Positions 3,360 to 50,604 of a stretch of DNA of 64,000 bases are shown here, one piece after another. Origin of the DNA: Desulfonatronum lacustre DSM 10312 (GTDB taxonomy: Bacteria; Desulfobacterota; Desulfovibrionia; Desulfovibrionales; Desulfonatronaceae); NCBI RefSeq assembly GCF_000519265.1, contig NZ_KI912608.1, positions 1,243,582-1,307,581 of the forward strand. Direction: 5' to 3'. A program made the translations under genes and the position numbers. The notes beneath the pieces were generated by a model that saw only the letters and a list, made by a program, of their open reading frames with translations, was not told where the DNA came from and made no database searches. Position 1 is the stretch's first letter, and the number at the start of each line of letters is the position of its first letter.

Positions 3360-3926
3360 TTACCGATATAGATTCAATTCCATTTCCAATGCATCGAGCC
3401 TGCGCGAAATGTCCGCTTCTTCCTCGTAGCTCATGGACCTGCCTCCTTCCGTCAGATGCAGGTAATCACGCCGGACGGAGTCCAGCCGGTATTGAACTTC
3501 GCGCCCCTCTCCCGCGGGCAAACGTCCGCTGACCCTCCCATCATCAATTGTCCACTGCAGTGCGACAATCCTGTCCCCGGTCCGTGGTCCTTCAATTCTC
3601 ATTGGCCGGAAAAGCGCCCGGTCAATTTCATTGCCAAGCCTTTCCAGCCGGACATTGAGGCTATTCCATTCTCCCCGGCGGGCCGGCTTGCTCGTCAGTG
3701 CCGTGTAATCCGTCCGAACGCCCTTCAGTGTGGTCAGGAACATTTGGGATTGGTCAGGGGTGAGCGCGCCGGTTCTCAGTCCGTCTCCAATCTTTTCCTG
3801 GATGACGACCATCTTGTTTTCCGCGTTCCGCTCCTTATCAGGCCATGTTTGAGGCATGGCCGCGCATCCGGAAAACAAAGCGAGTACAGCGACCATGAGT
3901 GCCGTCGTAAAGAGTTCGTTCTTCAT
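3360..3926 (-). CDS. Putative lipoprotein, first gene of the csbD operon
   Basis: A 188-aa protein with a lipoprotein signal peptide: a hydrophobic core (ALMVAVLALF) and lipobox SGC, so the mature N-terminus would be Cys at residue 21. The rest is charged and probably helical, with no known catalytic motif (KMVVIQEKIGDGLRTGAL, later EEEADISRRLDALEMEL). I do not recognise a named family. It would sit in the inner or outer membrane facing the periplasm. A GGAGAGAGGAG site precedes the start. The shared 65-nt element lies 127 nt upstream, so this gene probably leads the lipoprotein - 75 aa - CsbD operon. Confidence 0.75.
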   Translation of the reverse strand: MKNELFTTALMVAVLALFSGCAAMPQTWPDKERNAENKMVVIQEKIGDGLRTGALTPDQSQMFLTTLKGVRTDYTALTSKPARRGEWNSLNVRLERLGNEIDRALFRPMRIEGPRTGDRIVALQWTIDDGRVSGRLPAGEGREVQYRLDSVRRDYLHLTEGGRSMSYEEEADISRRLDALEMELNLYR

Positions 3927-4052
3927 TTTTGTCTCCTCTCTCCCGCAAGTTTCTCAAGGACTCGCAAGAATATGCGATTCTTCAGTAACGTCTCCGACAA
4001 CGTCACGACACCGTCCTTTGACTACGAAACTGGAGGATACCTTTTTGGGCAT

Positions 4053-4119
4053 CCCTGTCTGTAGGGGAATCGCATATTTATTGTGAGGAGAAATCACGGA
4101 AGACGGGAATAATTCCCGG
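4053..4119 (-). promoter_or_regulatory. Shared upstream element, copy 1 (lipoprotein-csbD operon)
   Basis: In gene orientation this reads CCGGGAATTATTCCCG, then GTGATTTCTCCTCACAATAA, then GCGATTCCCCTACAGAC. The same order of blocks occurs at 4171, 5053, 7822, 8374 and 23982, each upstream of a stress or envelope gene. It lies 127 nt upstream of the lipoprotein start. With the facing copy at 4171-4238 it forms a large inverted repeat between divergent transcription units. Confidence 0.75.
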
Positions 4120-4170
4120 GAGGAGGTTGCGAGGGGCGACAGGAAAGAGATCTCCGCACATCGTCCGTCA

Positions 4171-4238
4171 GGGGAAAATCCCGTTGCCTGTGATTTTCCC
4201 TTGCGACAATAGGCGATTTCCCCACAGACTCGGTTCAG
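4171..4238 (+). promoter_or_regulatory. Shared upstream element, copy 2 (ancestral mscS-hpf unit 1)
   Basis: On the plus strand it reads GGGGAAAATCCCG, TGTGATTTTCCCTTGCGAC and GCGATTTCCCCACAGAC. Downstream similarity continues for about 30 nt (GTTTTCCTGACGGAGGTTGG against GTTTTCATGATGCAGGTTGG after the copy at 5053). It would once have served the mscS copy whose remains lie at 4308-4446. It may now drive hpf. Confidence 0.7.
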
Positions 4239-4307
4239 AAAAAATGTTTTCCTGACGGAGGTTGGAAAAAAGACCCAGCATTCATTCCCTACAAGGCGGG
4301 AATGGGT

Positions 4308-4446
4308 GCGTTCACGTCACCTTGCTCGACGAGAAAACACAGATGGGGGGATGCAAAAAGGCGGTTCCCGGTTGAAACGCGCCCGAAAATTTTGATGCTG
4401 TACCACGAAAGCGTTGCTTCCGCCTCAGCTGATTCCGAGAAATTAA
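4308..4446 (+). pseudogene. Remnant of mscS 3' end (duplicated unit 1)
   Basis: This stretch aligns with the last part of the intact mscS at about 6606-6838. Shared blocks are GCGTTCACGTCACCTTGCTC, GGCGGTTCCCGG (AGCGGTTCCCGG in mscS), CCACGAAAGCG and GCTGATTCCGAGAAAT. It has small indels and an internal deletion, and no open frame remains. The rest of the channel gene is missing from this copy. It directly precedes the intact hpf-like gene, as intact mscS precedes the broken hpf copy. Confidence 0.8.
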
Positions 4447-4493
4447 ACCCTATAATCCCAGTAAATCCAAAATTTTAACGCAAGGAGAAAACC

Positions 4494-4892
4494 ATGCGGA
4501 TTCAAATCAACTCCGACCGCAACATCGAGATTGACGAGGCCCTGCAAACTGAAATCAGCGATGGAGTGGAAAGCGCCCTAGGCCGGCTCAGCGCGCGGAT
4601 CACGCTGTTGGAAGTCCATTTGAGCGACGAAAACAGCGACAAGAAGGGCGGACATGACGACATGCGCTGTCTGCTGGAAGCCCGTCTCGAGGGTCACCAG
4701 CCCATCGCGGTCGCACATCGGGCAGCGACACTGAATCTGGCCGTTGACGGCGCCGCGGCTAGATTGACCAAATTGATCAAGCACTCCCAGGAACGACTGC
4801 ACGAACAGCAGAGTCAACGCACGGACCCGGACCCGTCCGCGCCGGAACCGGAACCTGAGGATGAGTTGGAACAGTCTGGTGTAAATTCCTGA
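4494..4892 (+). CDS. Ribosome-associated HPF/RaiA-like (S30EA) protein
   Basis: A 132-aa protein with a beta-alpha-beta-rich N-terminal domain of about 100 aa. It starts MRIQINSDRNIEIDEALQTE and has the conserved LEVHLSDEN strand and the LEARLEGHQPIAVAHRA block, typical of the sigma-54 modulation/HPF/RaiA family that binds idle ribosomes. Here it lacks the long C-terminal dimerisation domain of long HPF and instead ends in a Pro/Glu/Asp-rich tail. It therefore resembles the short, stress-linked versions found beside channels and small stress proteins. AAGGAGAAAACC gives a strong ribosome-binding site, and a TATAAT-like box lies about 40 nt upstream. It ends at a strong hairpin. This is the intact member of three related copies; the others are at 6890 and 12027. 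Confidence 0.88.
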   Translation: MRIQINSDRNIEIDEALQTEISDGVESALGRLSARITLLEVHLSDENSDKKGGHDDMRCLLEARLEGHQPIAVAHRAATLNLAVDGAAARLTKLIKHSQERLHEQQSQRTDPDPSAPEPEPEDELEQSGVNS

Positions 4893-4914
4893 TGACACAA
4901 TGCGCAAAAAAGTT

Positions 4915-4939
4915 GGCCGGACACGTCCTGTGTCCGGCC
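4915..4939 (+). terminator. Hairpin downstream of hpf (unit 1)
   Basis: A perfect 10-bp stem, GGCCGGACAC / GTGTCCGGCC, with a 5-nt loop, 23 nt after the stop codon. There is no clear T-run. The same hairpin follows the broken hpf copy at 7114-7138, so it belongs to the duplicated unit. Confidence 0.7.
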
Positions 4940-5052
4940 CCTATCGATCTCCGCATAATCATACTCTTTTGAAATTTTCCACCTTCCGCTCTCTTCACGC
5001 CCCATGAGCGCCAAGAAAATATTCATTCGCGAGGAAAAATCACGGAGAACGA

Positions 5053-5122
5053 GTATTTTATCCCGGACGTCTGTGATTTCTCCTTGCGATAATGAGCGAT
5101 CTTCCTACAGACTTGGTTCTCC
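5053..5122 (+). promoter_or_regulatory. Shared upstream element, copy 3 (mscS)
   Basis: On the plus strand: TATTTTATCCCGG, CTGTGATTTCTCCTTGCGAT, GCGATCTTCCTACAGAC. It is the best match to copy 2. The preceding bases (5028-5047, TTCGCGAGGAAAAATCACGG) form an inverted partner, as in the 4053/4171 pair. It lies 249 nt before the mscS start, of which about 150 nt is the inserted repeat at 5203-5350. Without that repeat the spacing would be about 100 nt, like the other copies. Confidence 0.75.
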
Positions 5123-5202
5123 AAAAAGGTTTTCATGATGCAGGTTGGCGAATGATGGCCCTGCACCCAGCCCTGGTAACGCCCCGAAAAACACATGCCC
5201 TA

Positions 5203-5350
5203 GCAATCCGTTGAAAAACTCCCAATTGCTGCGTCGCTGCAAAAAGTTCAAACTCTCACGTATGAATAAATACGCTTCGACCTTGAACTTTTTTTGCTCC
5301 TTGCACTTGGGGTTTTTGAACGGACTGCCGGATAAGGACTTTTTCAACAC
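5203..5350. repeat. Dispersed palindromic repeat, family A (complete copy)
   Basis: An element of about 148 bp whose ends face each other: CCGTTGAAAAACTCC at the left, and GGGGTTTTTGAACGGA plus CTTTTTCAACAC at the right. It carries inner arms around AAAAAGTTCAAACTC and CTTGAACTTTTT. The reverse complement matches 50605-50730 over nearly its whole length. It codes for nothing plausible. It sits between the shared upstream element and the mscS start, so it looks like an insertion. Confidence 0.85.
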
Positions 5351-5370
5351 TCAGCTAGGAGACTGTTCCC

Positions 5371-6840
5371 GTGCAAAGAATCGGATGCCGCCGCAGGAAA
5401 CTGATCACGCGGGCTGTATTGCTCGTTGCGATTTATTGTCTGCTGATCTTTCCGGCCCTGGCACAGGAACCCTCCGGTACAACCGGCGAGCCACGGCAGT
5501 CGAACACCCCCGCCGGCGAGGAACTTTCCGCGGCGCCCGTGAAGGTGGACGTCAACCCGGTTGCGAGGGATGAAGAGATATTCAGGCGACTCCAAAGCGT
5601 CCTGGAGGCCACCAATTGGTTCACCGACCCACAAGTCCGGGTCGAGGAAGGAGTTGTCTTTCTGCGTGGCCAGGTGGAGTCCGAAGTGCTCAAGAAATGG
5701 GCTGGAGATCTGGCCCGCAACACCCAGGACGTGGTCGCCGTGGTCAACAGGATGGAGGTGATCGAGCCGTCGGCGTGGGATTTCCGTCCGGCCTGGCACG
5801 GTCTGTTGAAATTATGGCACGATGTTGTCCGTTCCTTTCCATTTTTCGTGTTTGGCCTGTTCATCCTGGCATTGTCCGCGGGCGCCGGCATACTGGCGAC
5901 AAAAACGACGCGGATATTCCTGCGGGGCCGAATTCGGACGAAACTCCTGAAAAACGTCATCGCCCGCGGGGTCGGCGGACTGGTCGTCCTCTGCGGCGCC
6001 TACCTGATTCTGAGGGTCTCCGGTCTGACGCAACTGGCATTGACGGTGGTCGGCGGCACGGGGCTGATCGGTCTGGTCATCGGCATCGCATTCAGGGACA
6101 TCACCGAGAATTTCCTGGCAAGCATCTTTCTCAGCATGCAGCGGCCGTTCGAGACCGGCGATCTGGTGGAAATAGCGGGTGAGACCGGGTATGTGCAGCA
6201 GTTGAACATGCGCACCACAATCCTGATGACCCTCAGCGGAAACCTCGTGCAGATCCCGAACTCCAGCGTTTACAAGAGCAATCTGCGCAACTTCACGACC
6301 ACCCCGAACCGACGGGAGGAGTTCATGGTCGGCATCGGCTACGACGACGCCATCAACACAGCCCAGGAAATTGCCCGGAACGTGCTGGCGGACCATCCGG
6401 CCGTTCTGAACGATCCAGAGCCTTCGGTACTGGTGGACAGCCTGGGGAGTTCCACGGTGAACCTGCGCATTTTCTTCTGGTTGAACGGTCACACGCACAG
6501 TTGGCTCAAGGTGCGCTCCTCAGTGATCCGACTGGTGAAATTCGCATTCCAGAAACACGGCATCTCCATGCCCGACGAGGCCCGGGAAATCGTCTTCCCG
6601 CAAGGCGTTCACGTCACCTTGCTCAATGATAAAGACCTGGAAGGGGGGGATGCATTGGTGGAAAAGCGGTTCCCGGTGGAAACGCCGCCCGAAAATCTCG
6701 ATGCCGTATCCACGAAAGCGGAAGCCGGCCTCTACAGCGAAGCCGTCGTCATCAAGGAGCAGGCCCGGCAGGCCCAACCACTGCGGGAAGGGGAAAATCT
6801 CCTGCCAATTGCTCCCGGCACGGCTGATTCCGAGAAATAA
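5371..6840 (+). CDS. BON-domain MscS-family mechanosensitive channel
   Basis: A 489-aa inner-membrane channel of the MscS superfamily, expected to open on membrane tension during osmotic downshock. A signal-like segment (residues 8-31, ending ALAQE) is followed by a BON domain at about 68-130 (VRVEEGVVFLRGQVESE). Then come membrane helices from about 150 and the MscS pore and beta domain (GLIGLVIGIAFRDITENFLA, then FETGDLVEIAGETGYVQQL). The start is a GTG with AGGAG upstream. An hpf-like gene, now broken, follows at once. The shared stress element and an inserted repeat lie upstream. The periplasmic BON domain is a less common addition that may contact lipids or the envelope. The fold assignment is firm; the gating stimulus is inferred. 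Confidence 0.93.
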   Translation: MQRIGCRRRKLITRAVLLVAIYCLLIFPALAQEPSGTTGEPRQSNTPAGEELSAAPVKVDVNPVARDEEIFRRLQSVLEATNWFTDPQVRVEEGVVFLRGQVESEVLKKWAGDLARNTQDVVAVVNRMEVIEPSAWDFRPAWHGLLKLWHDVVRSFPFFVFGLFILALSAGAGILATKTTRIFLRGRIRTKLLKNVIARGVGGLVVLCGAYLILRVSGLTQLALTVVGGTGLIGLVIGIAFRDITENFLASIFLSMQRPFETGDLVEIAGETGYVQQLNMRTTILMTLSGNLVQIPNSSVYKSNLRNFTTTPNRREEFMVGIGYDDAINTAQEIARNVLADHPAVLNDPEPSVLVDSLGSSTVNLRIFFWLNGHTHSWLKVRSSVIRLVKFAFQKHGISMPDEAREIVFPQGVHVTLLNDKDLEGGDALVEKRFPVETPPENLDAVSTKAEAGLYSEAVVIKEQARQAQPLREGENLLPIAPGTADSEK

Positions 6841-6889
6841 AACCTCTATAATACCAGTAAATCCAAATTGTTAAGAAAAGAAGAAAACC

Positions 6890-7090
6890 ATGCGGATTCA
6901 AATCAACTCCGACCGCAACATCGAGATTGACGAGGCCCTGCACGCTGAAATCAGCAATGGACTAGAAAAAATTGATCAAGCACTCCCAGGAACGACTGCA
7001 CGAGCAGCAGAGTCAACGCACGGACCCAGATCCGTCCGCGCCGGAACCGGAACTTGAGGAAGAGTCGGAGCATTCTGGTAAAAATTCATG
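6890..7090 (+). pseudogene. Internally deleted hpf-like gene (duplicated unit 2)
   Basis: The first 25 codons are almost identical to the intact hpf-like gene at 4494 (MRIQINSDRNIEIDEAL). At about 6968 the sequence jumps to the region that corresponds to 4773 in the intact gene. Roughly 200 bp are therefore missing, and the tail is read out of frame to an early stop. The deletion joint lies at a short AAATTGATCAAGCACTCCCAGG block. The upstream TATAAT-like box, the ribosome-binding site and the downstream hairpin are all kept. It may still make a 55-aa peptide, but not a functional HPF domain. Confidence 0.88.
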
Positions 7091-7113
7091 ATGACACAAG
7101 GCGCAAAAAAGCT

Positions 7114-7138
7114 GGCCGGACACGTCCTGTGTCCGGCC
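7114..7138 (+). terminator. Hairpin downstream of broken hpf (unit 2)
   Basis: The same perfect stem as at 4915-4939 (GGCCGGACAC / GTGTCCGGCC). It marks the end of the second copy of the duplicated unit; flanking identity fades about 40 nt later. Confidence 0.7.
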
Positions 7139-7281
7139 CTATCGATCGCCACATCATCATGCTCTTTTGACCATTCCGACTTATTGGATGGCTCATTATG
7201 CGTTTCGGACAGGTGCCCTGCCAAGGTCTGATAGCACGGACTTCTGTGCAAAAAATCCGTTTTGTGGAATCACGTACAGTT

Positions 7282-7735: not shown

Positions 7736-7821
7736 CATTTTACCCCCCGCTTGAATGTTGATGGTTCGTTGGAAAAAATTTACAGATGTCTTCTCTCCCC
7801 TCTACCATATGATAGCCTTAT

Positions 7822-7873
7822 GTTTGACCGTGTCTGTAGGGAAAACGCACATTTTCGTAAGGAATAATCCTAT
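7822..7873 (-). promoter_or_regulatory. Shared upstream element, copy 4 (zipper lipoprotein-csbD2)
   Basis: In gene orientation: ATAGGATTATTCC, then GTGCGTTTTCCCTACAGAC, then ACGGTCAAAC. The right half matches copies at 8374 and 23982 almost exactly; the left half is shortened. It lies about 90 nt before the decayed lipoprotein gene. Confidence 0.7.
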
Positions 7874-7914: not shown

Positions 7915-8262
7915 TCACGACACCATAGTCTCAAGGTCGGCTATGGCTTTTTCGAGGTCGTCGCTCAGGGTGTTGGCCCGGGCCGTCTTCCAATCGGCCA
8001 GGCTCGATTCAAGTTCGTCGCGGATTTCCAAAACAGGGGGCAGATTTTTGTCCAAGATCGCCTTGACCTCGTTTGGCAGGCCGTCGGCGAACCGGCGGAT
8101 GTCGTCAAGGCGGGCGACCAGTTCCATGACCCCGCGCATCCCGCTGGATGGCACCGGGACTTGGGATGAAAAAGCCAGTTCAAAGAGTCGGGGCCAGGCC
8201 CGACGGACATCATCTTCACTGTACGTTGAGGCCTGCACGCGAATCTGCAATAATTTTCCCAT
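7915..8262 (-). CDS. Hypothetical protein, 115 aa
   Basis: I do not recognise this protein. It starts MGKLLQIRVQASTYSEDDVR, is soluble-looking and probably all-helical. It has an acidic C-terminal half with coiled-coil potential (LEIRDELESSLADWKTARA, DDLEKAIADLETMV). The ATG at 8262 is chosen because GGGAGGAATC stands just before it; the longer open frame upstream runs through a G-tract and the regulatory element. The shared 65-nt element is 112 nt upstream, so it probably belongs with the csbD, mscS and lipoprotein genes in one response. Confidence 0.72.
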   Translation of the reverse strand: MGKLLQIRVQASTYSEDDVRRAWPRLFELAFSSQVPVPSSGMRGVMELVARLDDIRRFADGLPNEVKAILDKNLPPVLEIRDELESSLADWKTARANTLSDDLEKAIADLETMVS

Positions 8263-8373
8263 GATTCCTCCCGTTTTTTTGCCAATATTTTTCATTCGTC
8301 CCATATTTGGGGGGGGGCGATTTCGGGGTGTATTATAAAAATTTTTCTCCCCGCTCTGACACAATAGCATTGC

Positions 8374-8446
8374 GTTTGATCGTGTCTGTAGGGGAATCAC
8401 TTGTTTTTATTGGGGAGAAATCACTGGAGTCGGGATTATTTCCCGG
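8374..8446 (-). promoter_or_regulatory. Shared upstream element, copy 5 (115-aa protein)
   Basis: In gene orientation: CCGGGAAATAATCCCG, AGTGATTTCTCCCC, GTGATTCCCCTACAGACACG, ATCAAAC. All blocks of the consensus are present. It lies 112 nt upstream of the ATG, with TATAAT in between (near 8332). Confidence 0.75.
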
Positions 8447-8923: not shown

Positions 8924-8953
8924 TTTTTACTCGGGCCAACTAAGCAGCTCCTT

Positions 8954-11692
8954 TTACTTTACCTTTTGAAATTTTCGATACACGGATTTTTCGAGTTCCG
9001 ACAGGGTGAAGACCATCAGGCCGATGCCCAGTGGAACCAGCCAATGGCGAAGTTCCAGGGGGGCAGAACCGAACCAGAGATTCATGAACGGCGCATAAAC
9101 GAAAATAAGTTGGAAGAGGATCAGGGCTCCTGAAGCGATCAAGGCGACCTTGTTGCTCAGAAGGCGGGAGGGCAGCCACGCGGCTTCTCGAAGAAAGCGG
9201 CTGTTGAACAGGTAAAAAAGTTGGCCGGCCACCAACGTGTTCACGCAGACGGTGCGCACGATTGCTACGTCCATGTCCAGGGACATTTCCACATGGAAAA
9301 CAGCCAGGGTGGCTCCTCCGATAAGGACGGAGACAAAGCCGATCCGCCAAAGAAAGTAGCCGCCCAGAATGGCCGTACCGGGACGACGCGGAGGACGGGA
9401 CATCAGGTCTGGTTCGGATGGTTCAAAAGCCAGGGCCATGGCCAGGGTGATGGCCGTCACCATGTTCACCCAAAGGATTTGGACCGGCGTCAAAGGGAGC
9501 ACGGCAAAGCCGGCGACGATGGCGGTGAGAACGACCAACCCTTCAGCTCCGTTGGTCGGGAGAAGAAACAAAATCGCCTTGCGTAGGTTGTCGTAAATGG
9601 TCCGGCCTTCTTCCACGGCGTGTTCAATGGTGGCGAAATTGTCGTCCATGAGGACGATCTCCGCGGCCTCCTTGGTTGCCTCGGTGCCCTTGATGCCCAT
9701 GGCTATGCCGACATCGGCCCGTTTCAGAGCCGGAGCGTCGTTGACTCCGTCCCCGGTCATGGCCACCACTTCCTTTTCGGCTTGCAGGGCCGTGACCAGA
9801 CGTAACTTGTGCTCCGGGCTGGTGCGGGCAAAAATGTCGTGCTTCACGGCCAGGCGGCGCATTTCCGTATCGCTCGCGGCTTCCAGCTCCGGTCCGGTGA
9901 TGGCCGCCGTGCCGTTGCCGATTCCCATTTCCTTGCCGATGGCCATGGCCGTGGCCGCATGGTCTCCGGTGATCATCTTCACCCGGATGCCGGCTTCGCG
10001 GCAGATCTTGATTGCCGCAATCGCCTCGGGGCGGGGGGGATCAACAATGCCCACCAGGCCGGCAAAGATCATCTTTTGGTCAACGTCATCCAAAGACAGG
10101 GCCTGGCTTTTGGTCAGCCGCACCGCATCCGAATCTTCACGGGGCAGTTCCCGCCAGGCCGCGGCCAGAATTCGCTGACCCTGAGCGGCCAGTTCTTCCA
10201 GCCTGGCTTCCCACATGGCACGGTCCAGGGGCTCGGTGCCGCCGTCAGCGGCAAGCTGGAGCGTGCAACGGTCCAACAGACGGTCTGGCGCGCCTTTGAG
10301 CAACAGCAGGATTTTTTCCTCAGGACTTTTATCCAGGGTGGCCATGAACTTGGTTTCGGATTCAAAAGGCAGCTCCGCCAGGCGGGTATATGGGGTTGCA
10401 TCAAATTCAGCCTTGCGGCCCAGAGTGCGCAACGCTCCTTCCGTGGGCTCGCCGTTCAGTTTCCAGCGACCGTCCTCCTCGAAGAGGATTGCGTCATTGC
10501 ACACGGCCATGATCTCAATAATCCGCAAGAGATCGGAATTGTCTTTGAGTTCGGCGCGTTGTTCGTCCGCCCCTCGGATGTGGCCTTCGGGAACGTAGCC
10601 CGTGCCGCTGACGTGGTAGGTTTGGGTCGCGGTCACCACGGCCCTGGCGGTCATCTCGTTGCGGGTCAGGGTGCCGGTCTTGTCCGAACAGATCACCGTT
10701 ACCGAACCCAGGGTTTCCACGGCGGGCAAGCGGCGGATAATGGCCTTGCGCAGGGCCATGCGCTGCACGCCCAAGGCCAGGGTGATGGACAGGATGGCCG
10801 GCAGACCTTCGGGAATGGCGGCCACGGCAAAGCCGATGGCCGCGAAAAAGAGGTCTTCCATGGGCATGTCGTGGAGGAACCACCCGACAGCGAACATCAG
10901 GCCGGCCAGGAAGAGAATGACCACGGACAGCACCTTGCCGAAGGAGGCCATCTGGCGTGTCAACGGAGTGGCCAGTTTTTCCACTTCCTGGATCATTTTG
11001 TTGATCCGGCCAAGTTGGGTTTGTACTCCCGTGTGGACGACCACGCCCACGCCGCGTCCGGCAGCCACAAGGCACCCGGAATACGCCATGCTTGTGCGAT
11101 CTCCCAGGGGGGCGTCCTTCGGCACGAGTTCGGTTTGCTTGGCTGCGGCAACGGATTCGCCGGTCAACGCGGATTCCTCGATGCGCAGGTTTGTGGCGTC
11201 CAGCAGCCGAATATCCGCTGGAACCTTGTCCCCGGAGCGCAAACGGACGATGTCTCCCGGAACCAGCAACTCCGCTTCAATGTCATGAAAGTCTCCGCCG
11301 CGACGGACCTGGGCGTGCAGGGAGAGCATCTTGCGAATGCCGGCCAGGGCCTCTTCGGCCTTGCCCTCCTGGAAAAAACCGATCAACGCGTTGATGACCA
11401 CCACGCCCAGAATGACGAAGGTGTCTATCCAGTGCCCCAGCAGACCGGTGATGCCGGCCGCGGCCAGCAGGATGTAGATCAGGATGTCATGGAAATGCTT
11501 GAAAAAGCGTTTCAGCAATCCATCCGGCTCCGGCTCCGGCAGTTTGTTCGGGCCGAAGCGTTCCAGGCGCTTTTGGGCATCGTCCGGTTCCAGCCCGGCA
11601 ACCTGGCTTTGCGACAGGTCGAGGCACTCTTGGACCGTGAGGGCATGGGGATGGTTGATGATGGTGTCGTTCGTGTCTGGTTGTGTGGACAT
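8954..11692 (-). CDS. P2-type cation-transporting ATPase
   Basis: A 912-aa P-type ATPase that couples ATP hydrolysis to cation transport across the inner membrane. It has a Cation_ATPase_N domain (residues 10-80), an actuator loop with ALTGES near 178, and the phosphorylated aspartate in CSDKTGTLT near 336. A hinge motif MTGDGVNDAPAL follows near 640, then C-terminal membrane helices with WVNMVTAITLAMALAFEP. The helix-4 motif IPEGLPAI places it with P2 pumps (Ca-ATPase/PMR1-like) and not with heavy-metal CPx pumps, because no CPC motif or metal-binding N-terminal domain is present. The ion (Ca2+, Mn2+, Na+ or H+) cannot be decided from the sequence alone. It stands alone, flanked on both sides by repeat-rich spacers. 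Confidence 0.94.
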   Translation of the reverse strand: MSTQPDTNDTIINHPHALTVQECLDLSQSQVAGLEPDDAQKRLERFGPNKLPEPEPDGLLKRFFKHFHDILIYILLAAAGITGLLGHWIDTFVILGVVVINALIGFFQEGKAEEALAGIRKMLSLHAQVRRGGDFHDIEAELLVPGDIVRLRSGDKVPADIRLLDATNLRIEESALTGESVAAAKQTELVPKDAPLGDRTSMAYSGCLVAAGRGVGVVVHTGVQTQLGRINKMIQEVEKLATPLTRQMASFGKVLSVVILFLAGLMFAVGWFLHDMPMEDLFFAAIGFAVAAIPEGLPAILSITLALGVQRMALRKAIIRRLPAVETLGSVTVICSDKTGTLTRNEMTARAVVTATQTYHVSGTGYVPEGHIRGADEQRAELKDNSDLLRIIEIMAVCNDAILFEEDGRWKLNGEPTEGALRTLGRKAEFDATPYTRLAELPFESETKFMATLDKSPEEKILLLLKGAPDRLLDRCTLQLAADGGTEPLDRAMWEARLEELAAQGQRILAAAWRELPREDSDAVRLTKSQALSLDDVDQKMIFAGLVGIVDPPRPEAIAAIKICREAGIRVKMITGDHAATAMAIGKEMGIGNGTAAITGPELEAASDTEMRRLAVKHDIFARTSPEHKLRLVTALQAEKEVVAMTGDGVNDAPALKRADVGIAMGIKGTEATKEAAEIVLMDDNFATIEHAVEEGRTIYDNLRKAILFLLPTNGAEGLVVLTAIVAGFAVLPLTPVQILWVNMVTAITLAMALAFEPSEPDLMSRPPRRPGTAILGGYFLWRIGFVSVLIGGATLAVFHVEMSLDMDVAIVRTVCVNTLVAGQLFYLFNSRFLREAAWLPSRLLSNKVALIASGALILFQLIFVYAPFMNLWFGSAPLELRHWLVPLGIGLMVFTLSELEKSVYRKFQKVK

Positions 11693-11847: not shown

Positions 11848-12026
11848 ACTGCATTTTCTTAAGCGAAAAACGCATTGCCGAAGTAAAATTGAACCAGTTT
11901 TTGCAGCTTGTCTACAATTTTTCGCTATCGCAGACACAGGATGTCCGAAGATCACATGGAAGAAATTTTGTAACTGCTCAACACAATTTGCGTTGGCTTT
12001 GCCAAAACGCGATAATCCGGACTTGA

Positions 12027-12104
12027 ACGGCGCCGCGGCCAGATTGACCAAATTGATCAAGCACTCCCGGAAACGCCTGCGCGAGCAGCAGAGTCAACGC
12101 ACGC
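12027..12104 (+). pseudogene. Third hpf-like fragment
   Basis: About 78 bp match the hpf-like gene around 4747-4824 (ACGGCGCCGCGGC, AGATTGACCAAATTGATCAA, GAGCAGCAGAGTCAACGCAC). Neither the gene start nor its end is present. It is a fossil of further duplication or transposition of this segment, 5 kb away from the other copies. Confidence 0.8.
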
Positions 12105-12126
12105 ACATTCGGAATCGCGGTTTGGT

Positions 12127-12203: not shown

Positions 12204-13358
12204 TCAATACCTGAAGATCGCGGCGGCGCCGGTCTTGGTCGGCATACGTTCGGCAGGAACGATAACGACGTGTCCACCCTTCTTCAGGACCAGCTCCCCC
12301 AGGTCGTCGAGCAGGTCGTCGACCTGTGGGTGGGACACGTCGTCCTGTTCAACATCGCCCGTCGCGGCGTTGATCCGGCCGGGAAGTACCCGGTCGGCTT
12401 CGATCAACAGGGTGCCGACCCGCCCTTCCAGGCCGGCCTTGGCGATGCGTGGCGGATCGTCGCTGCCAAGCCCCTCGGACCATGCCTTGCCGAATTTTTC
12501 TACCAGATCGGCCAAAAGCGCCAGATAACGCGGTTCCACAAGCCGCCAGGCGCGCTTGCGAAATTCCTCGACGGACGGCAGGGCATCCGGGTGGATATCG
12601 ATGCTTTCCGGAATCAGAAACGGATTGCGGCTGAGTTCGTGGAACATATGGTGATGCTCCGGCAGGGAAGCCAGAATCAGCGGCAGGCCCGACGTCCGCG
12701 AGTGGTGTTCAAGGATCGCCTGGTCAACGACCCGGAAGAAACGCAGGGCATCGCTGTCCACTTCGGACTCTTTACTGCCATGGCCATGGTACATGGCCGG
12801 TTTGCCTCCACCTACACCACCGTATGAGGCCACGGTCTGATGCTGCTCGGTCAATTCTTCTCCCAGGGCCTGGGTCAATGTCCGCGGAACGCCCTGAGCC
12901 GGCTCGATCTCGTCCAGGGCATCCCGGTTGCCCTCGAAGAGCCGGATCGCATGCCGGTTCACGGCGAGAATCTGAAATCGGTCGGCCGACTGCTGGATGC
13001 GCAAAAGCGGCTTGATGTGGAAGCTGTCCGCCACGACGGCCAATTCGGGGGTCGGTCGTTGGAGGTTGTAGACCCGGAAAAAGCCTTTCGCGCCCAGGAT
13101 GGCCAGCCCGTCAAAGGTGTGGTTCCAGAAGACGGGGTCAGCGGCCAATGCCCAAAACGGTTCCAGCAGTGGCCGGATATCGTCGTCCGGCAACCGTTGC
13201 TGAAGCGACTGCTCCAACTCCTTCACAAGGTTTTTGAACCGGATCCGATCTTGCTTGTTTTCCGGGTGCCCCCGGTGGGTCGGCTGGTAGAGTGAAAGAC
13301 AGGGAGGCTCGCACTTGTCCCAGATCGCGGGCAAGTCGTTTTTTCCAAATGTGTGCAT
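12204..13358 (-). CDS. Bacterial eRF1-like (baeRF) family protein
   Basis: A 384-aa cytoplasmic protein resembling the bacterial archaeo-eukaryotic release factor families described from comparative genomics. These families are proposed to act on ribosomes or stalled peptidyl-tRNA. Support is the overall layout: an N-terminal domain (CLSLYQPTHRG, then RIRFKNLVKELEQSL), a central strand (AILGAKGFFRVYNLQRPTPE), the FRVVDQAILEHH region and a C-terminal domain with GRVGTLLIEADRVLPG and GGHVVIVPAERMPT. A HGHGSKESEVD segment in the middle is typical of these proteins. AAAAGGAGATACA precedes the ATG; the longer open frame upstream runs into a palindromic repeat and was not used. It follows the glucan synthase on the same strand. 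The family call is moderately sure; the activity is unknown. Confidence 0.78.
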   Translation of the reverse strand: MHTFGKNDLPAIWDKCEPPCLSLYQPTHRGHPENKQDRIRFKNLVKELEQSLQQRLPDDDIRPLLEPFWALAADPVFWNHTFDGLAILGAKGFFRVYNLQRPTPELAVVADSFHIKPLLRIQQSADRFQILAVNRHAIRLFEGNRDALDEIEPAQGVPRTLTQALGEELTEQHQTVASYGGVGGGKPAMYHGHGSKESEVDSDALRFFRVVDQAILEHHSRTSGLPLILASLPEHHHMFHELSRNPFLIPESIDIHPDALPSVEEFRKRAWRLVEPRYLALLADLVEKFGKAWSEGLGSDDPPRIAKAGLEGRVGTLLIEADRVLPGRINAATGDVEQDDVSHPQVDDLLDDLGELVLKKGGHVVIVPAERMPTKTGAAAIFRY

Positions 13359-13400
13359 TGTATCTCCTTTTAAAATCAAGATGAATCGCCAATGCATGCT

Positions 13401-13491
13401 CTGGGTCGAAATCGTAATCGAAATCGGAGGAATAAATAGATAATAAAACATTGCGATACCGATTTCGATGGCGATTTCGATTTCGACCCAG
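13401..13491. repeat. Hexamer-built palindrome, family B
   Basis: A long, nearly perfect inverted repeat: CTGGGTCGAAATCG-TAATCGAAATCGG faces CCGATTTCGATGGC-GATTTCGATTTCGACCCAG around an AT-rich loop. The RNA would form a stem of about 30 bp between the glucan synthase stop and the baeRF start, so it could end or process the upstream transcript. Confidence 0.8.
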
Positions 13492-13542
13492 ACAACAGTG
13501 CTAGGTTGGCAAAATAGTATCTTTTTTGAAAGTAAAGTGGAA

Positions 13543-16500
13543 TCAGCCGCATGCCAACACCACCTCCACCGCATGCTCTTGGCCGTCATCCACAAGCGCT
13601 ATGGTCATTTCCTGTTGCGCCACTCCGTCCACAATAACAGTCGCCGCACCGTCCTCGTCATCCTGTTGCTGCCTGACCGAGATCCGGTAGTTGGTTCCCC
13701 GAAAGCGGTAGCGGATCGTAAAAATGTCCCACTTTGTGGAGAGGCAGGGTTCGAAAAACAATTTGTTGCCTTCCAGCCTGAAACCCAGCAGGGATTCCAT
13801 GATCAGGCGGTACATCCAGGCGGCTGATCCCGTGTACCACGTCCACCCTCCCCTACCTGTGTGCGGCTCGACACCGTAAACGTCCGCCGCGACCACATAG
13901 GGCTCGACTTTGTACGTTTTCACTTCCTCAGCGGAATTCCCGTGGTTGATGGGGTTGATCATGGCGAAGAGATCCCAGGCGCGGCGTTTGTCACCCAACG
14001 CGGCAAAGGCCATGGTCGTCCAGATCGCGGCGTGGGTGTACTGTCCGCCGTTCTCGCGCACGCCCGGCACGTAGCCCTTGATATACCCCGGATTCAATGC
14101 GGATTTGTCAAATGGCGGATCCAAAAGCTGGATCAGGTCGTCATCCCGGCGCACCAGATATTTGTCCACGGCTTCCATGGCTGCCCTGGAACGCTTTTCG
14201 TCGCCAACGCCGGACAGGACCGACCAGCTCTGGGCTATCGAGTCGATCCGGCATTCGGGACTTTCAGCGGAGCCGATGGGGGTGCCGTCGTCGAAATACG
14301 CCCGGAGGTACCAATCGCCGTCCCAGCCATGCTCCTCGATGCTTCGGCCAAGCCGCGCGACTTCGTTGCGACATTGTCGGTCAAAGACCAGGTCTCCGCG
14401 CAGCCGCGCGATCTCGGCGAACCGGTTCAGCACCTCGCACAGGAAAAACGCCAACCAGACGCTTTCTCCCTTGCCTTCGTGGCCGACCATGTTCATGCCG
14501 TCGTTCCAGTCGCCGGATCCTATTAGGGGCAGGCCGTGCTCGCCGAACCTGAGCCCTCTCTGGATCGCGCGCACGCAATGCTCATACAGGCTGGCCGTTT
14601 CCTCGGATCTGACCGGAAGATCATAGTAGGATTCCTCGGTGTGACCCACTTGGCGGCCATTGAGGAAATGGATCGTTTCGTCCAGGACCCCGGTGTCGCC
14701 GGTGCTTTGGACGTAGCGGCACGTGGCCAGGGGCAGCCAGAGATAATCGTCGGAACATTTGGTCCGCACCCCTCTGCCGGTTGGCGGGTGCCACCAGTGC
14801 TGAACATCGCCTTCGGAAAACTGGCGTCCGGCGCAGAGGAGCAGATGCGCGCGCACAAGACCCGGCTCGGCATGGATCAGGGCCATGGAGTCCTGCAACT
14901 GGTCACGGAAACCGAATGCGCCTCCGGACTGGTAGTAGCCGCTGCGGCCCCAGAGCCGACAGGCGATGGTCTGGTACAGAAGCCACCCATTGGCCAGGAA
15001 ATCCACGGATTTGTCGGGGGTTTCCACCTGCACGGCGCCCAGGGTGTGATTCCAGTATTGCCAGACAGCTTCCAGCTCTTTTCGCGCCGCGGTGGAATCA
15101 CGATAGCGCTTTGCGAGACGTGCGGCGTGGCCATCATCTTGCCCGGCGCCGAGGGTGAACACGATCTCCCGGTCTTCACCGTCGTCCAGATCAAAAACAA
15201 CATGCATGGCCGCGCAGGGATCCAACGCGGCCCCGACCCTGCCGGAGAGGCGGGACCGGGTCATGGCCGCGGGACGGGCCAGGGTTCCATTGCGACCGAT
15301 AAATTCGGTCCGATCCGCGGTGACCGTTCTGGTGGCATGATCCACGTTAAAGAAGGCCACCCGCCTACCAAATTCGGTGTTATACGGGTTGTTCGCCAGA
15401 ATCGCGCCGCTTTCAGGATCGATCTCGGTGCTCACGTGCATCCCAGTCTTGGGACGCACATCACCCAGCACCCACTCGATGAATCCGCTCACCGAGAGCC
15501 GTCGCGGACGGCCGCACCGGTTGCGCACCTTGAGCACCGTGAACTTGACCGGCGCATCCTTGGCCACGAACACCCAGACCTCCGAAATGATGCCGCGCTC
15601 CGCGTGTTCAAACACCGTGTATCCGAAGCCGTGCCGGGTGACATAGGGAGAAGCACCTTTGGCGGGATGCGGCATGGGGGACCAGAAATGGCCGCGATCC
15701 TCGTCACGTAGGTAAAAGGCTTCTCCGCTGGAATCCACCACCGGATCATTGTGCCATGGGGTCAGTCTGAATTCGTGGGCGTTCTCGCTCCAGGTGTAGG
15801 CTGGGCCGTTTTCCGAGACAATGGCGCCGAAATGTGGATTGGCCAGCACGTTGACCCACGGCGCGGGTGCGACCTGCTCGCGACTGGTTGAAATGACGTA
15901 CTCATGACCATCCGGGGTGAATCCCCCGATGCCGTTGAAAAACAGGAGGTCTTCCCGGGGCAGGGCCGCGACGGTGGGCGGCAGGGGGCGAAAGAGACGG
16001 GTCGGCGCCAGGGCTGGAATAATCGGTTGATCACGACCAACGCGGTTCAGTTGATCCGCGAGCGTTCCCTGGCTATCGCGAATGACGATCCGGGCCAGGG
16101 CCTGAAAGATGATCCGGTCTTCCTCCGAAATCTGATCAGCGTTGCGCACGAACACCTCACCCGGGCGATCCGCCCGCTTGCCATGCACTCCGGCGGCGAT
16201 AAATCCCATGATCTGATCGTGCAGAACCTGCCGATACCCGCCATGATCTTCATTGATGATCACCATATCCACGGCCAGGCCTTTGAGACGCCAATAGGCA
16301 TGGGCTTGAACGAGCTGGCGGGCCAGCTCGATGTTCTCCTGATCCTCGATCCACAGCAGAACAATGGGTAAATCACCGGAAATGGAGTAGCCCCAGAGGC
16401 TGGATTGTCCCCGAAGATTTTTCATGATCAGGCTGGAATCGGCGCGCAGCCCGGAATTGGCGTAGAGTACCGAGGCCACGAGCCGCCCGTAGAGCTGTGC

Positions 16501-19500
16501 GTCGGATTCCGTGGCGTTGATCTGTTGCAGAAGGACCTGGCTATGGGTCCATGCCAGCTCGAAAACGCGGTCCACAAGATACCGGTCCCGGTATTTGCCC
16601 ACCAGCCCCGCGCAGACATCGCGAGTCTCCGCCGCGCCGGTGATGATGTTCACGGTTGCCGATGCTTCCGGTTCCAGAGTGATTTGACAGCGAATGGCCA
16701 CGATGGGATCCAGAACCGGCCCTTCGCCGCCGGAAAGAGGCGACCGGCTTTTCATGGCTTCGGGAGCGGCCAGCGTGTTCCCGCGACCGACAAACCGCAA
16801 CCTGTCTGTTTCATAGGACATATCGCCCATGTCCGCATCGTGGACAGCCATGGTGTGAAACATCCATGGCGGTTTCTCGTCGGCAAAGCGAGGCCGCCGG
16901 GTCGCCATGATCGCGCACTGGGTCCTGATGATTTCGGTCTGGACGAAGAGATTGCTGAAGGCCGGATGCGCCGCGTCGGACGCCGGCGATGCCAGGACGA
17001 CTTCCGCATAACTGGTCACTTCGATGGACCTGCGGGTCTTGGATCGGTTGGTAATGGTGATCCGGCGCAGCTCGGTATCATCCTCGGGGGATACGGATAT
17101 CTCCGTATGGGTGTCGATATCCTCGTCCCGGCGGCGGAACTCGACCTGGCCTTCGGAGAATATGGCTTCGTACCGATCGGACGGCTTGAGCGTCGGCTGG
17201 TGCGCCGCGGACCAGAAGACACCGCTGGAAAGGTCCCGGATATAGCAGAAGGCCCCCCAATTATCGCAGGTGCCGTCTTCACGCCACCGGGTCACGGCCA
17301 GATCTTTCCAGCGGCTGTACCCGCCACCGGCATTGGTGACCATGACATGATATGTTCCGTTGGACAGGAGTTGCACCTCGGGGATGGACGTATTCGGAGT
17401 CATGGAGATGCGCAGCGGCTTCTCCTTCAAGAAAGCCGACATCTTCCGGGACTCGGAAAGATCCGAGATTTGCGAGTGGTATGCCGTGGCCTTGGGCAGC
17501 CGCTCCTGAAGCAGCAGCACGGTGGCCTGAAACATGGGATTCGCCTTGAACCGTTTCTGCATGGGTTGGTCCAGCAGCAGATGCGTCAGGGCGAGCAGGC
17601 TCATGCCCTGATGGTGGGCCATGTAGGACTGAACCACGGCGTTCGTCCGCCCGCGAGGCAGATGACTTGGAGTATAGTCAATGGCCTCGTAGAAGCCGTA
17701 CCTGCCTTGAAAACCACGAGACGACAGATCCTCAAGATTGCGGCACGCTGCCTCGGGCGCCACCATGAGCGCCAATGCCGAAGCATAGGGGGTGATGACC
17801 AGATCTTCGGCCAGCCCGCGTTGCAGACCGAGACCGGGCACCCCGAAGGCCTTGTACTGATAGTTGAGCTGACTGTCGGTCATATTGTAGCCGGATTCCG
17901 AAATTCCCCAGGGCACGCCATGTTGCTTGCCGTAGTCGATCTGCCTGGCCACGGCCGCCTTGCAGCTTTGATCAAGAATTGTCTGATCATAAGTGGGCAT
18001 CATCACGAGCGGCATCAGATATTCAAACATGGAGCCGCTCCAGGAAAGAAGAACCGATTCTCCGCCGGCAATGGTCTGCATCCGCCCCAGGGCGAACCAG
18101 CTTTCCTGGGGAAGTTGACCCTGGGCAATGGCAACGAAACTGCTCAGCCGCGCTTCCGAAGCCAGCAGATCGTAGAAGCTGCCATCCCTGCGCCCCTCGC
18201 TGACGTTGTAGCCGATGGCCAGGAGACGGCGCGCGCTGTCGTACAGAAAGGCAAATTCCATGTTCCGGGCTAGTTCCCGGCAATGGTGCGCAAGCTCGTC
18301 CAGGCGGACGATTCTTCTCCCGGCACTGAGGCTGGACTTGATGATCAGCCATTTGAGCTTGTCCAGCCGCTGTTTTTGCTCCGGTGTCTCGCTTTCTTGC
18401 CGCATTTCCTCGATCAGGGGCAGGACGTCATTATCGAGGCAGGCCAGCCGGCGCAGCGTGGGGATATCCTTGAAAGCGGGAATTTGATCGAGAATCCGCC
18501 CCGAAAGCGACGGCTCGGCCCAGGGCGCCAGCTCGTTCAATTCGTCCACCGCATCCCGGCACTGTTGCTCAAGGGACCGCGCCCACCACGCGGCGTTGCT
18601 CTCAGGATCGGCTTCGAAGTGCAGGGCAATTTCCTTGGCGGATGTCGCCAGTCGCCCGAGGGACGCCTTCAGGTCCCAAAGGGTCGTTTCTTGCGGGGTC
18701 TTGTCCGGCTTGGTGTTCTGTGGCGGGGTGTTCTGTGGCGGGGACGATCGGATGGACTCCATGTCTTCCATGAACCGCGTCAGCTGCGCGGGTATGCTCC
18801 CACTCGCAACATCCATGAGGACCATGGCCGTATCGGCAATTCCGTCGAACAGTCGTTCTCCGGTGAGCTTCTCGTCGGGAAGCGCGAGCAACCCTTCCCG
18901 CAAGGTCATCAGGCTCGCCGCCAGGTTCCCGCTGTCCACGGACGAAACGTACATGGGCAGGAGCGGCTTGCGGGTTCGGGTGTCGTACCAGTTGTAGAAG
19001 TGGCCGCGATGCCGTGCCAGGCCATCCATTGAACCCAGGGCGTTTTCCGTTCGATCCATGAAACGCCCGACGGTGATGTAGCCGAAGTCGCGGGCCGACA
19101 GATTTGAGAGCAGCGCAAACCCCATGTTGGTGGGCGACGTGCGGTGGGCCACCACCTCGCGCGGCGCTTCCTGAAAGTTGTCCGGGGGAAGCCAGTGATC
19201 TTCGGGGCCGACGAATTGCTCGAAAAAGGCCCAGGTCTTGCGGGAAAGCTTGCGCAAGAAGACCAACTGATCATCGGTCAACCGGACTTTCCGGGGCCGG
19301 ATGGGCAGACTGAGCCACCAGGCGATCAGGGGAGAAACAAACCAGAGGGTCAGCAACGGCAAGGCGACTGAAAGTGTTCCTGGGAGTGCTCCCGACAATG
19401 CTCCCGGCAGTGTTCCGGTCGGAACCATTGTCCGGGCCTGAACCAGATACCCTGTCACGATCATGGCCGCGACCGGGGCGATCCACATCCTGCGATACGA

Positions 19501-22425
19501 CACGCCAAGCGCCGACAGGCCTGAAGTTGTTCCTGGCGCTGTTCCTGACGCTGTTCGTCCCGTGCTTTGGGCGAGGCCCGGTGGGTTCCATTCCAGAAGC
19601 CCCCGGCCGGACACGTTCATCCGCCACAGGGTTCGCAGGATGGCGGCGGTGTTGGTCGCGGCCTCGTACGGCAGGCAGAGCAGCGTGAACGCGGACTGGG
19701 CAAGGCCTCTCCCGGTGGCCTGGGTCGCGCTTGCAAGGTGCTGGCTGACCAGGGCGTGGCCGGTGGTATTGAAGAAGCCCATGAGGCAGTTGATCAGGGC
19801 GGGAATCAGCACGATGCCGATGACCACCGCGGTCCAGAACCAGGGCGAGGACAGGACGGTCCAGCCGAGCAGGAGCAGGAGGGTCAGCGCCATGGGCACG
19901 AGGCTGCGCCGGAGATTGTCGAAAATTTTCCAGCGGGACAAGAGCGAGAGCGGATTTTTCGTGAATTTGGTCTTCGGGCCGGGGACACTCGGAAACAGCC
20001 ATCGCAGGATCTGCCAGTCCCCACGAATCCAGCGTAGGCGGCGGTCCACGTCCGCGTCGTAGCGCGCAGGATACTCCTCGAAGAGCTGCACGTCGCTGAT
20101 CAGCCCGGACCGGGCATGGCACCCCTCGATAAGATCGTGGCTAAGGATCAAATTTTCGGGGAAACGATCCTTGAGCACCTGCTCAAAGGCGTCGACGTCG
20201 TAAATACCCTTGCCGATGTACGATCCTTCGCCGAAGAGGTCTTGATAGACGTCCGAGACGACCCCGGTATAGGGATCAATGCCGGCGTCAATCCCGTGCA
20301 TGCGGGTATAACGCGACCTGTTGGTTCCCGGCAGGCTGACCGCCACCCGGGGTTGCAGAATGCCGTATCCGGACACGATGCGCCCCTTGTCCGCGTCGTA
20401 ATGGGGACGGTTCAGGGGATGGGCCATGGCGCCCACGAGCTGCCATGCGGTATCCCGTGGCAGGTCCGTGTCCGTGTCCAGGGTGATGACGTACTTCACG
20501 CCGCGCAACACATCGATATTGCCGACGATAAGCGAGAAATCCGCATCAGTTTTTTCCTGGGAATCCTGCTCGGACTTGCCGCCACGGAGCAACGCATTCA
20601 ACGCCGCCAACTTGCCCCGCTTCCGTTCATGGCCCATCCAGGTCCGTTCTTTTGGGTTCCATTGACGAGGTCGATGGAAGAGAAAGAAAACGTCCTCATT
20701 GGCGTCGTATGTCGCATTGAGTCGTTCGATTCCCTGCCTGGCCAGCAAGACCAGCGATTCGTCCGCGGGGGTCTTTTCCTCGGAGGCGTCCAGGAAGTCG
20801 GTCAGCAGGGCAAAGCGCAGGTTTTCCTCCCGGCCGGCCAGAAACCGGACTTCCAGGGCATCCGTTAGTTCCGCGACATGTTCCGGACTGCAAAGCATGG
20901 CCGGAACCACGACCAGGGTGGCCGATTCCGAAGGGATGCCCTTGGAAAAATCCATGCGGGGCAGCCTCCGCGGTTTGGCAAGACGAGCGGCGATGAGGTT
21001 GATCAACGCCATGACCACTTGGCTTAGCGCCAGCAGAGAGAGCCCGCCCACGACCCAGAGCAGCGCTCCGTCCACCCCGTCTGAGCGGGTTTTGGCCAGC
21101 AGAGCGGCGCAAAGAATCACCGAGACGAAGCCAATAGCGCCGAGATACAGGAACAAAGGGAACCGGCGACCGAGGCCGCGGAGCATATCCAGGACCGTCG
21201 ACCTGACCTTGACCCGGCTTTCAAGGTCCGCAATCCCTTGGTCAATCAGGTAGAAGCCCACATGACCCGTCCGGCTGTCGCCATCCGCCCCGGTCGCGCC
21301 TTGCCCGGCCAGCTCGATGGCTGTTCGGGCCACGTCCACTTCGGTGAATGCGCTTTTCCGAGCGACCTCCTCCACGACGTGCCGGTATTGATCTCGGGTG
21401 TTGAAATGCATTTGGCCGTGAATTCCGGCCGGATCTTCTTGCAGGATGTGTTCAACGGCGCTCAGGGTCTCCACGAACCGGCGCCAGTCGATGACGCTCA
21501 GAACGCGCAGACCCGCGATGCTGTTGCTGATGGAAAGCTGATCCGCGGCCTGCTGTTGATTCTCCGACTGCACCATCTGATCGATGGTCAGGCGGGATTC
21601 CGAAAGTTGCTGCTCGATCCAGGCCAGGGGCAGTGCGAGCGCGGCTCCCTGCCCCTGAAGTCGCCGAACCAGCTCCGCGACAAAGGAACTGGTCATGGGC
21701 GGTTTTGACCTGGCCATGTCGGCAACAGCGAGAATCAGGTGTTTCCGGTCATTTTGCGCCGTCTCGATAATCGTATCGGCCCACTGCCCGGCCAGATCAC
21801 GGTCAGCCCGGTTCACGGCGATTCGAGCGGCAATCCGCCTCAGGTTCTCGATCAGGGCCAGGCGCAACATAATCGGAATGGCCCATAATTCGCCCAGCAT
21901 CAAGGGCGTCACGGTCTGGTAGGCGGAAACGAAACCGCTCAGGCTCTCCAGTTCCACACGGCCGTCGCCGTGGGCGATGGTCTCCAAGGCAATGTCGTAC
22001 ACCCGGGGAAGCCCCCTGGATGGACCGTCCTTCAGGCGGGGAAGCTTTTTGGCGTAGCCCTTGGGCAACAGCTTTCTCGCCACCAAAATCTGCTCTTCGA
22101 TCAGATAGAAGTTGTCCAGCAGCCATTCCCCTGCCGGGATGATTCCTCGATTGGCCTGTACGACCTCGGTCAACAGGCCGCGAACCGCGAACAGAACGCT
22201 TTCATTCTTGGCAAGCCTGGCCAGCAGGCGTTCCGGAGCATGTCCCTGATCCAAGACATGCAACCCCGCGAGAATTTTGCCGTGCTCCTCCATCTGGGAG
22301 GTACTGTACAACTCGGCACGCAACGGTGCTTCGTCGCCTTCGTTCTTATGGAAACGGGCATTGCCACGCAGCCGCCCCCAGAGTTGCACTGATTTCTCGA
22401 TAAGTGTCGCCGCGGTGAGCGTCAT
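13543..22425 (-). CDS. ndvB: Cyclic beta-1,2-glucan synthase (GT84-GH94)
   Basis: A 2960-aa inner-membrane enzyme that makes and cyclises beta-1,2-glucan from UDP-glucose, related to NdvB/ChvB. A cytoplasmic and membrane N-terminal part leads to the GT84 glycosyltransferase. There the [15 protein letters not shown] motif lies near residue 647 and the [13 protein letters not shown] motif near 797, flanked by hydrophobic helices. A glucoamylase-like domain follows around 1300-1600 ([20 protein letters not shown]). Two GH94 phosphorylase-like regions fill the C-terminal half, with [14 protein letters not shown] near 2557 and [20 protein letters not shown] near 2642. Periplasmic glucans of this kind buffer osmotic stress, in keeping with the nearby mechanosensitive channel. 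Two Ala/Gly/Pro/Thr-rich inserts (around residues 960-1030) and a duplicated PPQNT stretch are unusual. An AAGGATG site precedes the ATG. The frame is intact over 8.9 kb. Confidence 0.96.
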
Positions 22426-23901: not shown

Positions 23902-23981
23902 TCTTCCTCCCCCCCTTTTTTTGTTGTGTGCACAGCACGAAAAGATGCCGTTTATCTCGGTAGCTTCAATAATACCTATCT

Positions 23982-24054
23982 GTTTGGCCGTGTCTGTAGG
24001 GGAAAGGCTTGTTTTGTGCGAGAAGAAATCCCGGAAGACAGGAATATCTCCCGG
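23982..24054 (-). promoter_or_regulatory. Shared upstream element, copy 6 (outer-membrane protein)
   Basis: In gene orientation: CCGGGAGATATTCC, GGGATTTCTTCTCGCAC, CTTTCCCCTACAGACACGG, CCAAAC. It lies 81 nt upstream of the ATG at 23901 and 15 kb away from the other five copies, so it is not part of the local duplication. Confidence 0.75.
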
Positions 24055-24484: not shown

Positions 24485-24751
24485 GATAACGGATGAGATC
24501 GAGGACAAATCTGCCCTGCTCCCGGATGTCGTCCTCGGAATCCCGCACGTTGAAGGACCCCGATGTCTGGAAATTCCGGACACGGTCATCAAAGAGACTC
24601 CGGAGAATCCGCGCCGGGTCGACGACCGCCTGACAAAGCCAGGGCATGATCTGGCCAGGGTTGTCCATGTTGTCTGGAACGAAACGGACTACTCAGGGAA
24701 AAACGGGGGCCGACGGCGGTAGAATGCGCATCACCCGTGAAAGAGAACGCC
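24485..24751. other. Spacer upstream of prsR
   Basis: About 270 bp between the repeat and prsR. It contains a short minus-strand open frame (PWLCQAVVDPARILRSLFDD) that resembles no family I know and runs into the repeat, so it is not called. An ACTACTCAG box like that of the composite repeats occurs near 24688. No sigma-54 or sigma-70 promoter is convincing. Confidence 0.4.
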
Positions 24752-50565: not shown

Positions 50566-50604
50566 ATTCTGTGTCCAATGGGTCGTTAACTGGGGTTTGA
50601 TAAA

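Follow-up and report, generated by a model that had tools for sequence, protein, structure and literature searches.

Two complementarily reduced copies of an mscS-hpf unit in Desulfonatronum lacustre and a promoter-like motif shared with its neighbourhood

At the level of gene order, a block of genes can be copied and a different gene then lost from each copy. Such copying and loss is described by tandem duplication-random loss (TDRL), familiar above all from the gene order of mitochondria, and by duplication-degeneration-complementation. Among sets of stress genes, the transmissible locus of stress tolerance (tLST), or locus of heat resistance (LHR), is characterised by a chaperone and protease gene set. 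Balon genes are reported to adjoin a RaiA gene most often (PMC10901736). We analysed a 64-kb stretch of the D. lacustre DSM 10312 genome (G000:C1:1243582-1307581; hereafter the window, with positions counted from its first nucleotide), in which a unit made of an upstream promoter-like element, the BON-MscS channel gene mscS and the short S30AE-family gene hpf stands in two copies, one keeping hpf and the other mscS. This genome (G000) is a single contig of 3.76 Mb.

Two collinear copies, each with one intact gene

A preliminary description of the locus proposed that the unit is duplicated. A repeat search and blastn against the window bore this out: copy 1 (4187-4972) and copy 2 (5071-7170) are collinear, with all blocks in the same order (Table 1). 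By blastn, the paired blocks are the element (4188-4265 and 5071-5148; 79%, E 2e-13), the mscS tail (4308-4413 and 6605-6720; 80%, E 1.7e-20), the segment from the end of mscS to the start of hpf (4414-4572 and 6809-6968; 89%, E 4e-54) and the end of hpf with the hairpin and its flank (4770-4972 and 6969-7170; 91%, E 2e-77). Over aligned columns, identity is 78.5% for the element, 86% for the mscS tail (with many indels), 85% for the junction, 93% for hpf and 92% for the 3' flank. The similarity between 4308-4446 and 6606-6838 that a duplication entails was found, with an alignment score of 114 against a best of 30 in 1000 dinucleotide shuffles; the hpf block scored 314 against a best of 30 in 200 shuffles. 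Further downstream, homology of 4973-5030 to 7171-7228 was not accepted, as 31 of 38 columns align but with seven gaps. An assembly artefact or chance similarity could in principle account for second copies. However, the copies differ by 7–22% depending on the block and are therefore not an assembly duplicate, the E values reach 2e-77, the shuffle maxima are less than half of the observed scores and the genome is one contig, so that we regard this explanation as practically negligible.

The two copies have lost complementary genes. In copy 1 hpf is an intact open reading frame (ORF) of 132 aa, whose ATG lies 244 nt 3' of the inward element arm, and none of the three frames of the mscS tail gives a continuous mscS reading. 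In copy 2 mscS is intact, and hpf measures 202 nt against the 399 nt of copy 1, a net shortening of 197 bp with a frameshift that leaves a 55-aa ORF; about half of the outward element arm is also gone. The earlier assignment of an intact hpf with a decayed mscS tail to unit 1, and of an intact mscS with an hpf carrying a frameshift and an internal deletion of about 200 bp to unit 2, therefore stands. The hairpin claimed for both units is present, the same 25 nt following both hpf copies; as a terminator it fits the minus strand only, and a plus-strand terminator was ruled out because the T-run is on the minus strand only. These data confirm that the duplicated, complementarily reduced mscS-hpf unit is real and largely as first described.

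The product of hpf carries an S30AE domain (33.5 bits, Pfam cut-off 23.7) and has one match in the PDB, chain v of 7m4z (E 6.5e-18). As it scores 27.4 bits against the NCBIfam yfiA equivalog TIGR00741, under the cut-off of 40.9, and as another S30AE gene of the genome, at 1741056, scores higher (70.7 bits), hpf is a second, short paralogue; its family membership points to a role in ribosome hibernation. The mscS product has MscS beta, MscS C-terminal and BON domains above the Pfam cut-offs and matches PDB 2vv5 (E 8e-29). Its scores stay below the cut-offs of the MscS equivalog and subfamily models of NCBIfam (108.4 bits at best, with 400 required), and as a member of this channel family it would serve pressure relief. 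Besides the values in Table 1, the ratio of nonsynonymous to synonymous divergence (dN/dS) of hpf is 0.289 against relative G001, 0.263 against G005 and 0.145 against G027, and that of mscS is 0.238 against G001 and 0.185 and 0.200 for two parts of the gene against G003. Both remaining intact genes are under selection.

Table 1. Features of the two copies and their surroundings (window positions)
Feature	Position	Strand	Remarks
lp3360, 188 aa, no Pfam match	3360..3926	-	divergent from copy 1; lipoprotein-like start (by eye)
Outward arm of the divergent element pair, copy 1	4036..4099	-	65.0 bits; faces lp3360
Inward element arm, copy 1	4187..4250	+	53.3 bits; now faces hpf
Decayed mscS tail, copy 1	4288..4446	+	several indels
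Intact hpf, 132 aa, S30AE family, copy 1	4494..4892	+	dN/dS 0.195 vs G003
Hairpin 3' of hpf, copy 1	4915..4939	.	terminator-like on minus strand only
Outward element arm remnant, copy 2	5020..5045	-	12.8 bits, model positions 2-25; core unrecognisable
Inward element arm, copy 2	5071..5133	+	53.4 bits; faces mscS
157-bp dispersed repeat in mscS leader, copy 2	5199..5356	+	MITE-like (miniature inverted-repeat transposable element); site empty in G003, G007
Intact BON-MscS channel gene, 489 aa, copy 2	5371..6840	+	dN/dS 0.196 vs G007
hpf pseudogene, copy 2	6890..7091	+	197 bp lost, frameshift, 55-aa ORF left
Hairpin 3' of hpf, copy 2	7114..7138	.	25 nt identical to copy 1 hairpin
Third hpf relic, 93 bp	12014..12106	+	blastn 87%, E 5e-27; convergent with Balon-like gene
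Balon-like gene (baeRF family 3)	12204..13595	-	true start probably within ORF
Motif sites in the window	4036-4250 (pair), 5071-5133, 7811-7870, 8363-8426, 23971-24034

Relatives and the history of the copies

The hpf protein was matched in 7 of the 41 genomes searched (G000, G001, G003, G004, G005, G007 and G027). In G003 the unit is found once, as element-mscS-hpf facing a Balon-like gene, and carries two insertions, each about 230 bp long: one within mscS and one between mscS and hpf. They lie at about 8939-9167 and 8173-8395 of locus L019 and have short flanking duplications. In G007, lp3360-element-mscS-hpf is found once, with the same intergenic insertion as in G003 and with the lp3360-unit linkage of the source genome, on a contig of 3141 bp whose end falls within hpf; this genome being 84% complete, that the unit is single is uncertain there. 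G001 has mscS and hpf on separate contigs, each behind an element (the two elements are 90% alike), and G005 has hpf alone behind an element, without a close mscS. The proposal of a single ancestral mscS-hpf operon in relatives is thus upheld in that the unit occurs once in G003 and G007. Because hpf stands behind its own element in G001 and G005, the operon is not clearly ancestral and may be a passing state.

The separate genes, as in G001, might even be the older condition, with the mscS-hpf operon a later fusion and copies 1 and 2 a return to the earlier state. The arrangements in G001 and G005 are consistent with this. So is the wider distribution of mscS. Among 28 BON-MscS loci (two in the genus, identities down to 40%, with relatives at 64–77% in records labelled Desulfobulbaceae, Desulfobacteraceae, Contendobacter, Methylobacter, Betaproteobacteria, Planctomycetes and others), hpf lies within about 3.6 kb of mscS in only 4 of the 26 loci outside the genus (L060, L061, L063 and L067), many loci ending at contig ends; the nearest is L061, with hpf 1.3 kb 3' of mscS. 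Exchange of the region between species (see below) blurs which state is older, and this history does not replace the duplication, since copy 1 keeps an mscS tail and so passed through a fused state. It is compatible with the other readings, and we rate it a serious possibility that falls slightly short of an even chance.

For the window itself, we infer the following order of events. A unit consisting of a divergent element pair, mscS, hpf and the hairpin would have come to stand as two adjacent copies. In copy 1, a deletion of most of mscS would have brought hpf close behind the element; copy 2 would have kept mscS, lost 197 bp of hpf and the core of the outward arm, and gained the 157-bp repeat in its leader. 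Next to the Balon-like gene, yet another hpf would have decayed to 93 bp. The outcome would be one BON-MscS channel and one short HPF, each behind its own copy of a shared promoter-like motif, and the two genes are now presumably transcribed separately. We hold this account as a whole, two adjacent copies followed by complementary loss, to be probable.

The third hpf relic scored 129 against a best of 27 in 200 shuffles. It occupies the place of hpf in G001 and G003, and hpf of G005 is likewise convergent with the Balon-like gene, 2.5 kb off. Since this relic exists, loss went beyond the two-copy pair. The neighbouring protein scores 152 bits against baeRF family 3, exceeding the cut-off of 31.5, and 164.5 bits against NF052287, under the family cut-off of 330; it is therefore named Balon-like only.

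Do the two copies share one source? The C-terminus of hpf and the 3' hairpin flank are common to copies 1 and 2 and are not found in G003, G001 or G005, and both copies are without the mscS-hpf insertion, about 230 bp long, that is common to G003 and G007, which argues for one common source. Several observations weigh on the other side. In its inward element, copy 1 resembles G007 (90%) more than copy 2 (77–79%). The element tree has weak nodes (40–72%) at the relevant places. An hpf tree on shared columns leaves copy 1, copy 2 and G003 nearly unresolved (42% bootstrap). Site patterns in mscS join copy 2 with G003 (20), copy 2 with G007 (14) and G003 with G007 (8), and those at the 5' end of hpf (5 sites, roughly half of which fall in the leader beside the insertion), together with the shared insertion, join G003 with G007. 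The genome stretches scanned hold one more hairpin look-alike (46 nt, 87%, L086:4210-4255), so that possession of this hairpin does not by itself set the two copies apart. As mutual closest relatives, then, the copies are supported by the 3' flank, contradicted by the element and left at 42% by the hpf tree. Given the element similarities and the nearly unresolved hpf tree, a recent tandem duplication in place is not established; recombination or two arrivals would produce such a mosaic just as readily as a single duplication at the site.

Genes of the region have indeed moved between species. In a tree of rpoB, which was available for all of the 8 genus genomes but G007, two pairs have 100% support, one of G000 and G005 and the other of G001 and G003. 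Between G000 and G003, synonymous divergence (dS) is lowest in the P-type ATPase gene (0.114), followed by mscS (0.14), the Balon-like gene (0.21), hpf (0.24) and the compared part of a gene encoding a 2960-aa protein (0.39), against 1.01 for rpoB; between G001 and G005 it is 0.196 for hpf against 1.38 for rpoB. These values, far under those of rpoB, indicate transfer of the region genes between species. In G021, from another family of the order, the ATPase is 96% and the Balon-like gene 87% identical; the tree of the Balon-like gene is poorly supported (17–60%).

Such exchange could have assembled the pair in D. lacustre by two arrivals, copy 1 being an lp3360-linked unit as in G007 and copy 2 having been brought beside it from another strain, with no in-place duplication. 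The G007-like element of copy 1, the low dS of region genes between G000 and G003 and the closeness of the copy 2 mscS to that of G003 (94.9%, against 94.2% for G007) would all fit; the hpf C-terminus and hairpin flank common to both copies but lacking in G003, and the absence from both copies of the insertion common to G003 and G007, speak against it, and we think it unlikely. Our reading is an old duplication with later recombination; on this view the finding is old, mosaic and wider than the mscS-hpf pair.

Other features of the locus were noted. The 157-bp repeat has at least 40 further copies in the genome (of 132 candidates, 40 were scored) and recurs in the window at 1-66 and 50597-50735. 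By eye, 7 of 9 aligned copies show a short target duplication that contains TA. Window positions 12204-22425 hold the Balon-like gene and then the gene of the 2960-aa GH94/glucoamylase-domain protein, presumably of the cyclic glucan synthase type; both genes also occur in G001, G003, G005 and G021. G001 has two Balon-like genes (L020 and L037), one beside hpf and one some 4 kb away from mscS, which suggests a duplication of greater extent whose genes were divided up in their own way.

A motif shared across the region

The upstream element had been described as the promoter of the unit itself. This was not borne out: the element belongs to a directional motif, about 65 nt long, for which a sequence-only model gave 19 sites in G000. 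An iterated profile gave 36 matches in the scanned stretches, two of which (window 5020-5045 and L024:2981-3020) span less than two thirds of the motif. Its core is CCCCTACAGAC, and a TATNNT-like -10 box lies at its end, by eye only. In G000, 15 of the 19 sites fall within 1179834-1267615 (88 kb; binomial P 1e-21), a test that is biased, since the sites behind the motif model come for the most part from this same region; 18 of the 19 fall within C1:1179834-1390490. Sites were found in 6 of the 8 genus genomes and in 7 of the 41 relatives. The seventh is G021, whose four sites, on one contig, played no part in the motif model; the region genes of G021 were noted in L116-L117 (G021:C12:1-39500). 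Among 31 loci scanned (the 28 BON-MscS loci plus L022, L023 and L038), the motif was absent from 29, including L022 of the genus, and present in L056 (G007 contig) and L057 (G001 contig).

The mscS units of G003, G007 and G001 each have a divergent motif pair, as does copy 1, and hpf has one in G001 and in G005; most other sites in G000 are single. No motif site lies within 2.3 kb upstream of lp3360 in G005. ORFs 3' of the motif include a GH15 enzyme, a transketolase, PRC-barrel proteins, DUF5670 proteins, lp3360, hpf and mscS, and 4 of 10 examined downstream proteins had no Pfam match above the cut-off. As to the nature of the element, an RNA of known family was rejected (no Rfam match at gathering thresholds in the window), as was a sigma-54 promoter (by eye, the GG-N10-GC pattern is in only some copies). 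A sigma-54-type response regulator at 24737-26131, considered as regulator of the region, had one partial match only (L121) in the relatives' stretches compared.

The motif may be an activator-dependent stress promoter. A broader scenario, which we put forward tentatively and consider doubtful, is that it is a mobile promoter private to a stress island and passes, along with the genes of the island, between Desulfovibrionales families. Operons would be rebuilt repeatedly by copying and pruning of motif-gene blocks, which would place a gene now behind a shared promoter and now behind its own; mscS-hpf would be one snapshot of this, fused in G003 and G007, apart in G001 and re-split in the window. 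The shared motif is a more interesting lead than the split operon: together with the stress genes behind it, it makes a candidate regulon directly testable.

Comparison with known systems

A limited literature search turned up no published account of a split mscS-hpf arrangement. The process, copying followed by complementary loss, is a known one and the locus a new example of it, an ordinary kind of genome wear; its value lies in a two-gene unit split in this way, for which close relatives show the fused as well as the separate state. More weight attaches to the wider setting: stress-survival-type genes (a short HPF, a Balon-like factor, a BON-MscS channel, a P-type ATPase and others) that have moved between species and have in common one strong promoter-like motif, seen also in G021.

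As in TDRL and duplication-degeneration-complementation, a multi-gene unit is present in two copies, a different gene has been lost from each and the sum is the full set. It differs from them in that loss here splits an operon, a promoter-like arm has decayed as well and a third hpf relic is present. Compared with the Balon stress operons (PMC10901736), the likeness is that hpf lies beside the Balon-like gene in G001 and G003 and 2.5 kb away in G005, with a relic beside it in the window; the difference is that the Balon-like protein scores under the Balon cut-off and, perhaps, that hpf is here convergent with its gene. With the tLST/LHR (PMC8290217, PMC8407380), the region shares the movement of a stress-gene set between species, and we claim no membership.

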